A DNA stretch of 36,485 nt from contig PCVE01000108.1 of assembly GCA_002762705.1 (NCBI GenBank), positions 1-36,485 on the forward strand, read 5' to 3'. A program made the translations under genes and the position numbers. How positions within the stretch are numbered: the stretch's first letter is position 1; the number at the start of each line of letters is the position of its first letter. Below the pieces are notes generated by a model, which saw only the letters and a list, made by a program, of their open reading frames with translations, made no database searches and was not told the origin of the DNA. The DNA comes from Candidatus Woesearchaeota archaeon CG11_big_fil_rev_8_21_14_0_20_43_8 (GTDB lineage Archaea; Nanobdellota; Nanobdellia; Woesearchaeales; CG08-08-20-14). Positions 20,215 to 22,328 of the stretch are shown piece by piece.

Positions 20215-20274
20215 ACCTCTTTGGTATTTTGGGGTATGTTGATGTCAGTATTATACTTTGTGTTTATGTTCCCA

Positions 20275-20537
20275 CATCTTTTCGGCTCTGTAGAAAGTCG
20301 TCTTCTCCGGGAGATACATCTCATATTAGCTTCTAGCACGCTGACCAGATCCTCTGGTCAGCGTGCGCTTTTTTGCCCTGCCTGTCAGACCTTATATGCA
20401 TGATGGATCAAAAATAGCAGGGGCAGACAGTGTCTGGACCGCTTGAGGCGGCCCGGGACTCTGCCAAGAGGAGATATGAAAAGAATTATGCATCGATCAT
20501 CAAGACACGACTTTCTACAATGCCCATCTTTTCGGCT
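20275..20537. repeat. Nested repeats: 13-bp direct repeat CATCTTTTCGGCT flanking a 12-bp perfect inverted repeat TGTAGAAAGTCG / CGACTTTCTACA
   Basis: Direct repeat at 20275-20287 and 20525-20537; inverted repeat arms at 20289-20300 and 20508-20519. Confidence 0.85.
20336..20374 (+). terminator. Perfect 14-bp hairpin followed by a T-tract, terminator-like
   Basis: GCACGCTGACCAGA-TCC-TCTGGTCAGCGTGC followed by GCTTTTTT. Confidence 0.7.
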
Positions 20538-20619
20538 AATATGAAACCCTCTCCATTTATTTGTACAATTTAACACGAGAAAACGCATTATCTCGGCGGA
20601 TATGCAATATACATTCTGT

Positions 20620-20823
20620 CTATCGGCTTCGCTCCGTCCCGGAGGGACTAACGCTTCAGCCGTTCTATAGGCCAGGTCAAAACCCTTTGTGGCTTCCTAG
20701 ATTGCTTCTCCGAGCTTAGGTATTCAAGACGCGCCTTACGGCGCAGCAACAGGATCAGATGCCACAAAGCAGCTCGTAGGACGAAGTCCGAAGAGCGTAT
20801 TTATTGGATCTTGGCCCTTTTTT
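20620..20823 (+). ncRNA. Candidate structured non-coding RNA, identity unresolved
   Basis: Long-range pairs TTTGTGGC (20686-20693)/GCCACAAA (20761-20768) and GGCCAGG (20670)/CTTGGCC (20810-20816), internal hairpins CTAT-CGGC...GCCG-ttct-ATAG, GCGCC-TTAC-GGCGC, GCTCgtaGGACgaaGTCCgaaGAGC, ending in six T. No ORF. Confidence 0.5.
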
Positions 20824-20969
20824 AATAGTCTCTGCCGTCGATAAAACGACTGATCTCGTCGGAGATATAGTTCTTTAGTCTAGAGGGTTTCACATTAGCC
20901 CATCTTTTCCTAAACTTTAAATATCTCTTATCAATAAAACATATGATGATATATGAAGGGGTGCTAGAA

Positions 20970-22328
20970 ATGTCAGTATTCAGAGCATATGATATAAGGG
21001 GTGTATACCCGACAGAGATCAATGAAGATATCGCCTATGGTGTCGGAAGAGCGTTTGTCCTGTTCCTTAAATGCAAGACTGTTGTTATAGGAAGAGATAT
21101 GCGATTGTCATCAGACAGCATATTCGAAGCATTGGCTCGCGGCATAACAGACCAGGGCGCAGATGTGATAGATATAGGTCTCTGCTCGACACCGATGGAC
21201 TATTTCACGATCGCGAAATATGGCTATGACAGCGGTATAATGATAACTGCGTCGCATAACCCAAAAGAATACAACGGCCTGAAGCTGTCGAGAGCGAAAG
21301 CCATCCCGATCGGTGGAGACAGCGGCATGAAAGATGTCGAAGCATTATACAACAAGCATAAAGGTGGGAGTTGGCCTGATGCAGAAAATAAAGGCACAAT
21401 AATAAAAAAAGATATCGAAGATGATTATGTCGCGCATCTTCTTGATTTCATGGGCGGAAAGAAATTATCTAACATGAAGATCGCAGTAGACGCGGCAAAC
21501 GCTACAGGTGTGATCGAATTTGAGCACATGAAAAAATTGTCCGATGATACTGTCGAATACATCCCGCTCTATATGGAGATTGATGGCACATTCCCAAATC
21601 ATGAAGCGAATCCACTAAAAGAAGAGAATATGAAAGATGTCGCAAAAGCAGTAGTAGACAACAAAGCCCACATCGGCCTTGCCTTTGACGGCGACTGCGA
21701 CAGAGCTGGTTTTGTCGATGAAGATGGAAAAGTAGTATCGGCAGATTTCATCACGGCGCTCATCGCGCGTCAGTTCCTCTTAGAGAAGAAAGGAGAGAAG
21801 GTTCTCTATGATCTCCGTTGCAGTTGGGTGACAAAAGAAGAGATAGAGAAAGCTGGCGGAATACCTATGATGTGCAAAGTAGGCCACGCATTCATCAAAA
21901 GACAGCTTAGAGATGAAAACGCCGTCTTCGGCGGCGAGCTAGCAGGACATTTCTATTTCCGGGATAATTTTTTCACAGATTCTGGTATAATTGCTATCCT
22001 TCAGATGCTCAAATATGTCTCATCGGCGATCAAGGGCGGTACCACAGTGTCCCAACTTGTGGATCCAATGCGAAAGTATTTCTGTACAGGCGAGATCAAC
22101 ACAAAAGTGAAAGATCCAGACGCGATCTTAAAAGACCTGGAAGACAATTTCACAGAAGGCGCTTCGTTGGTTTCGCATCTTGACGGTATCAAGGTTGAGT
22201 TCGACGACTATTGGTACAATGTGAGGAAGAGCAATACCGAACCAGTTCTCAGACTCATCGTCGAAGGCAGGACAAAAGAAGTCATGGAACAGAGAAGAGA
22301 TGAGCTTCTCAATGTGATCCGCGGATAA
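20970..22328 (+). CDS. Phosphomannomutase/phosphoglucomutase
   Basis: FRAYDIRGVYPTEINEDIAYGVGRAF; GIMITASHNPKEYNGLKL; LAFDGDCDRAGFVDE; GELAGHFYFRDNFFTDSGI; RKSNTEPVLRLIVEG. Start at MSVFRAYD. Confidence 0.96.
   Translation: MSVFRAYDIRGVYPTEINEDIAYGVGRAFVLFLKCKTVVIGRDMRLSSDSIFEALARGITDQGADVIDIGLCSTPMDYFTIAKYGYDSGIMITASHNPKEYNGLKLSRAKAIPIGGDSGMKDVEALYNKHKGGSWPDAENKGTIIKKDIEDDYVAHLLDFMGGKKLSNMKIAVDAANATGVIEFEHMKKLSDDTVEYIPLYMEIDGTFPNHEANPLKEENMKDVAKAVVDNKAHIGLAFDGDCDRAGFVDEDGKVVSADFITALIARQFLLEKKGEKVLYDLRCSWVTKEEIEKAGGIPMMCKVGHAFIKRQLRDENAVFGGELAGHFYFRDNFFTDSGIIAILQMLKYVSSAIKGGTTVSQLVDPMRKYFCTGEINTKVKDPDAILKDLEDNFTEGASLVSHLDGIKVEFDDYWYNVRKSNTEPVLRLIVEGRTKEVMEQRRDELLNVIRG

Follow-up and report, generated by a model that had tools for sequence, protein, structure and literature searches.

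The 755-bp gap at positions 20215 to 20969 of the window (the whole stretch of 36,485 nucleotides that was analyzed) holds two tandem MITEs, M1 and M2, in front of an archaeal gene, rather than an RNA gene. We found that, across the order, insertions of related elements almost always occupy a single fixed position immediately upstream of a promoter. The arrangement in the window is very probably the outcome of two successive transpositions, in which IS5-family (IS903-like) transposases mobilized M1 and M2 in trans and placed their 9-bp cut against the BRE-TATA of the gene. This reading builds on the elements themselves, their TSDs, their insertion sequence (IS) relatives, and a distance to the BRE-TATA that is fixed across many genomes.

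Two tandem elements and their dispersed copies

M1, M2, and the duplicated 9-bp words occupy 635 bp of the gap; by coordinate arithmetic, subtracting both elements and two of the duplicates would leave a gap of about 130 bp, an ordinary size. Inverted repeats delimit each of the two modules, and identical copies of the 9-bp sequence CATCTTTTC lie before, between, and after them, at 20275 to 20283, at 20525 to 20533 (common to M1 and M2), and at 20901 to 20909 (adjoining the core promoter). M1 (20284 to 20524, forward strand) is a 241-bp MITE with IS5-type ends and without a transposase. Repeat detection placed its left TIR, GGCTCTGTAGAAAGTCGT, at 20284 to 20301 on the forward strand, where pattern searches also recovered it, and its right TIR at 20507 to 20524 on the reverse strand. 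M2 (20534 to 20900, forward strand) is a MITE of 367 bp that belongs to the same IS5 superfamily and has another TIR subtype, its left TIR, GGCTAATATGAAACCCTCT, lying at 20534 to 20552 on the forward strand and its right TIR, located by repeat detection, at 20882 to 20900 on the reverse strand. The third copy of CATCTTTTC is followed by CTAAAC (20910 to 20915, forward strand), a weak match to R-N-W-A in the BRE position as set by the flank profile, then by the TATA box TTTAAATA (20916 to 20923, forward strand), 15 bp from the M2 end, and then by a phosphoglucomutase/phosphomannomutase gene (20943 to 22328, forward strand; Pfam PGM_PMM domains I to IV), which may start at 20943, 20946, or 20970. 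The ATG of this gene lies 27 to 30 nt past the first T of the TATA box.

The preliminary description, which read the gap as one or two noncoding RNA genes, had seen much of this architecture. The 13-bp direct repeat in its left module (CATCTTTTCGGCT, 20275 to 20287 and 20525 to 20537) is there, as are the inverted repeat within it (18 nt at 89%), the 14-bp hairpin (20336 to 20366, forward strand; perfect in the window copy, with one mismatch in most other copies), and, within 20620 to 20823, the long-range pairings and T6 tract of its right module. It was also right that the region looks less AT-rich than the other gaps, with a GC fraction of 0.498 in M1 and 0.466 in M2 versus 0.29 in the gap remnants outside both. 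Overlooked were a third, 12-nt direct copy at 20898 to 20909 and the 19-nt inverted repeat, at 95%, formed by 20534 to 20552 and 20882 to 20900.

A DNA search of the window's genome, that of a woesearchaeal archaeon, returned 26 matches at 74 to 96% identity, many of them running out at contig ends. About 20 are dispersed copies of M1, several with perfect 9-bp TSDs, while contigs C141, C43, C46, and C99 hold other copies of M2. Aligned copies have sharp ends and 9-bp TSDs, e.g., TATCGAAAC, CCATACTTC, CTTTTGTCC, and ATATTCTGC. A core in the interior of M1 (columns 141 to 188 of alignment A2, about 20420 to 20470 in the window) is conserved like the TIRs, which is unusual for a MITE. The M1 core had no exact match in the collections of genome contigs and viral contigs searched. 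In both elements the TIRs are 16 to 19 bp long and flanked by 9-bp TSDs, and the list of open reading frames holds no plausible transposase gene within either. Both elements are thus short, bounded by TIRs and a TSD, present in many copies, free of a transposase gene, and matched by autonomous relatives with the same ends, as is expected of MITEs. They share the traits of prokaryotic MITEs described in a review, which are gene-less and short, with TIRs, direct repeats of 7 to 9 bp, an intergenic location, and predicted folded transcripts, and which are moved by related IS (PMC10969869). The archaeal MITEs listed there come from Sulfolobus, Halobacterium, Haloquadratum, and a few others, with no Woesearchaeota among them (PMC10969869). 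Elements of the M1 and M2 type differ from those listed in having a fixed promoter register.

Terminal repeats shared with IS5-type insertion sequences

Of 353 genomes of the order, 31 contain the M2 TIR pattern GGCTARTRTGAAACCCT, with 0 hits for the reversed control pattern, and 27 the M1 TIR pattern GGNNCTGTAGAAAGTC, with a control near zero. Both TIR types occur on MITEs and on full IS, whose transposases are of the IS5 family in the M2 type and probably so in the M1 type; in other genomes, the same ends bound MITEs of about 120 to 550 bp with unrelated interiors as well as complete IS. M1 and M2 themselves were not found in 59 relatives by DNA search, because their interiors are lineage-specific whereas their ends are common.

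The autonomous relatives of M2 are two IS with M2-type ends from other genomes, L154 (1,019 bp, perfect 9-bp TSD) and L155 (1,018 bp, TSD matching at 8 of 9 positions), both encoding a DDE_Tnp_1 transposase, together with IS ends in the window's genome. The L154 transposase passes the NCBIfam IS5 model NF033579 with 145 bits (cutoff, 140), and the sole named relative found for it comes from a Candidatus Woesearchaeota MAG. For M1, the autonomous relative is the 901-bp L191 of another genome of the order, which has M1-type ends and a related transposase, 30% identical to that of L154, whose best match is the same model at 96.6 bits against the cutoff of 140. No full IS with M1-type ends was found in the window's genome. 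At its contig ends, two kinds of IS end persist, one of which translates into the C terminus of an IS5-type transposase (TRVIAYNIDRLIRM...RVSH*), and IS ends can be paired through identical 9-bp TSDs (ATTTATTCC for C56 and C58, TCTTCAACA for C133 and C59). The contigs of this genome gave no match to PF01609, because the middle of the IS is missing from the bin and only the ends of transposase genes are present.

The TIRs of IS903 begin with GGC, a start that the woesearchaeal elements share. Members of the IS903 group of the IS5 family, as exemplified in Paracoccus, are about 1,050 bp long with inverted repeats of 15 to 27 bp and direct repeats of 9 bp (PMC3281130). The woesearchaeal IS resemble them in their IS5-type DDE transposase, single gene, 9-bp TSD, and similar size of about 1 kb, but they are archaeal, distant in sequence, and targeted beside the BRE-TATA, the likeness being one of size, gene count, and TSD. 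IS1 and IS1595, considered as a source of the ends on account of the 9-bp TSD, are both absent from the window's genome, and the IS1 of related genomes carries other ends. In two of these genomes (G078 and G125; loci L104 to L132), many-copy IS1-family elements break the assemblies at contig ends. These elements, whose ends begin with GGAAGTGTTATCA, lack a promoter register. MITEs of both TIR types have an internal motif in common, in which an outer stem of variable sequence encloses GACRTT-CCCC-GNN-GGGG-GCAACCCC-YTTGTC; it was seen in eight different genomes of the order (L147, L149, L170, L171, L176, L185, L193, and L196), with no Rfam match in the six of these that were scanned.

Insertion register at archaeal core promoters

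In the window's genome, many insertions have a TATA-like box on one side, 6 bp past the TSD. The promoter hypothesis was framed on this genome alone, and earlier flanks of relatives agreed with it. For an independent test, 100 further stretches were fetched from 29 other genomes, giving 104 flanks. Counting from the element end, so that offset 15 corresponds to the 9-bp TSD plus 6 bp, TTTWWA starts exactly at offset 15 in 28 of the 104 flanks, versus a mean of 0.55 and a maximum of 4 at offsets 30 to 109. Both ends and a TSD were available for 49 insertions; a TATA-like box starts at offsets 14 to 18 in 39 of them (0 to 4 of 49 in shifted windows), and in 37 of these 39 it is present on one side only; the other 10 have no clear TATA match, several showing near-matches. 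When the TATA-positive flanks were pooled (n = 79), the box was preceded by R-N-W-A, which is the archaeal BRE, and ATG was enriched at 45 to 49 bp (36 in this bin), i.e., 30 to 34 nt past the first T of the box, a spacing that fits leaderless archaeal transcripts. BRE-like letters accompany 67% of the TATA sites adjoining insertions, compared with 26% of the remaining TATA-like sites at these loci (P = 6e-8), while the ATG enrichment relative to the latter was not significant (P = 0.10). The IS1 control comprised 27 flanks, almost all of them taken from two genomes of the order, and none had a box at offset 15. The distance between element end and core promoter is thus fixed, and the elements insert against archaeal core promoters. 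Some are located upstream of tRNA genes (an Rfam tRNA match at L185:71-143 and a tRNA-like sequence in the flank of L273), showing that the targeted promoters are not limited to protein genes.

The target could be recognized through DNA-bound TBP and TFB or through the BRE-TATA sequence itself. We give close to an even chance to the idea that a TBP/TFB complex sitting on the core promoter recruits the woesearchaeal IS5-type transposases, which then cut immediately upstream, so that insertion would perhaps be guided by these proteins. A preference of the transposase for a DNA sequence, namely a TTTAWA word at a set spacing, is a serious contender at somewhat less than an even chance; the sharp single-base register at offset 15 speaks for it, as does the nonsignificant ATG comparison, which leaves room for direct DNA recognition. 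Against it, the BRE-like letters, which are contacts of TFB, are enriched beyond other TATA-like sites, and the register is one-sided in nearly all two-sided insertions, whereas a symmetric transposase dimer should give symmetric targets. Retention of M1 for a host role after insertion, cis-regulatory or as an RNA, is unlikely: its interior blocks are conserved among copies like the TIRs (0.81 versus 0.81 and 0.78, with linkers at about 0.6) and the downstream neighbor is codirectional in most copies, but the consensus structure of M1 shows both-sided changes in just 2 of 16 pairs, and promoter targeting accounts for the bias in gene orientation. That insertion is random and selection spared only the copies upstream of promoters is highly improbable, since, although an insertion that disrupts a gene is harmful and every M1 copy examined lies within or beside a gap, selection cannot set a one-base register and IS1 of the same order shows none.

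Insertion against the core promoter also offers an account of the stacking in the window. M1 would have arrived first, upstream of the phosphomannomutase promoter, duplicating CATCTTTTC, and M2 later at the same promoter-defined position, duplicating the same 9 bp again and coming to lie nearest the promoter. Provided that the core promoter is the point from which the transposase measures, a newcomer at an occupied promoter would cut the same 9 bp, and the expected order would be TSD-M1-TSD-M2-TSD with M2 nearest the promoter, which matches the window; promoter targeting would thereby explain the shared triple repeat. Such a site may be favored because gene and promoter remain intact, and the elements may still be active today. 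Counting against the account as a whole are the poor fit of CTAAAC to R-N-W-A in the window, the 10 insertions without a clear TATA match, and the missing transposase gene and full M1-type IS in the window's genome. At three places in this genome (C85, which is the window, C141, and C84), precisely 9 bp separate the right end of an M1 copy from an M2-type element or IS. The layout in C141 is M1-TGAATAGAC-M2-TGAATAGAC-GGCAGA-TTTAAATAAG. That in C84 is M1, 9 bp, and an IS, where the two flanks of M1 mismatch, so that the neighboring IS departs from a simple reinsertion.

Promoter-targeted transposition was previously known for bacterial Mutator-type elements. The nearest precedent is that of TnGBS, ISLre2, and ISKra4, which insert 15 to 17 bp from the -35 element, upstream of σA promoters, and which use both orientations when their inverted repeats are symmetric (PMC3942029). 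The woesearchaeal elements likewise keep a fixed promoter distance in both orientations, but at archaeal BRE-TATA promoters instead of bacterial σA promoters and with an IS5-type transposase unrelated to the Mutator/p-MULT type; with such a transposase and an archaeal host, they do not belong to p-MULT. The haloarchaeal ISH6, also an archaeal IS with an AT-rich target, duplicates an AT-rich motif, and the same paper suggests that it might prefer promoters or gaps (PMC3942029); the ISH6 motif, AANATNTT, lies inside the duplicated target, and no fixed promoter distance was shown. In the literature searched, which covered only a minority of subscription papers, we found no report of a fixed promoter distance of transposons in archaea and no paper on woesearchaeal MITEs or IS, and promoter-homing insertion in archaea appears to be unreported so far. 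Among eukaryotes, the retroelements Ty3, Ty1, and TRE5 integrate beside Pol III genes via the transcription machinery. The woesearchaeal elements are DNA transposons, and an IS5-type element reading the BRE/TATA position to the base would be a simple case of targeting by a eukaryote-like transcription machinery. Were TBP/TFB recruitment true, archaea would have a parallel to the targeting of Ty elements, in which promoter-proximal insertion spares the gene and permits repeated stacking at one promoter. Since the insertions mark core promoters, they could serve to map promoters from sequence only in uncultured DPANN archaea. They also explain the pile-up of structured noncoding repeats upstream of genes in such genomes, which can be mistaken for noncoding RNAs.

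Folding and a structured repeat inside M2

Both modules fold better than dinucleotide-shuffled sequences on both strands (z = -3.7 to -6.4). Without the TIRs, the values are -3.6 and -4.0 for M1 and only -0.9 and -1.8 for M2, indicating that most of the fold signal stems from the TIRs, with the M1 interior still folding better than shuffles and the M2 interior at chance level. The preliminary description had been unable to place RNase P or SRP motifs convincingly, and indeed, chance hits aside, neither these nor any other Rfam family gave a covariance-model match in the gap with the threshold relaxed to E ≤ 5; no tRNA or tmRNA was found there either. Strong folding on both strands, that of the M1 interior included, and the covarying stems described below are what one or two undescribed single-copy noncoding RNA genes would have in their favor. 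This reading is nevertheless very improbable for the gap as a whole, given the missing Rfam match, the numerous copies bounded by transposon ends and 9-bp TSDs, the transposase-bearing relatives, the absence of the M1 and M2 interiors from 59 relatives by DNA search, and the chance-level fold of the M2 interior. What stands of it is one structured piece in the right module.

This piece is R1, a small dispersed repeat of about 90 nt that sits inside M2 (20729 to 20818, forward strand) and consists of a hairpin followed by two stacked, covarying stems around a 3 × 3 internal loop (GTA/GAA, GGA/GGA). In an alignment of 8 rows, six of which were used to derive the structure, pairing reaches 97% and 91% in the two stems, which together show 15 both-sided changes, a result equaled by 0 of 500 shuffles and by no slid version. 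R1 has no constant gene neighbor and was seen only in the window's genome, since neither viral contigs nor the 287 other genomes of the order searched gave a convincing match. In the window's genome it has 9 matches, 6 of them outside M2, recurring in C110 (as two inverted copies), C6, C28, C109, and, in part, C37. We read R1 as a REP/BIME-like structured repeat that M2 may have captured. Besides the window, R1 loci comprise L030:2465-2693, L031:2607-2696, L100:1501-1592, and L102:1501-1594, partly as inverted pairs.
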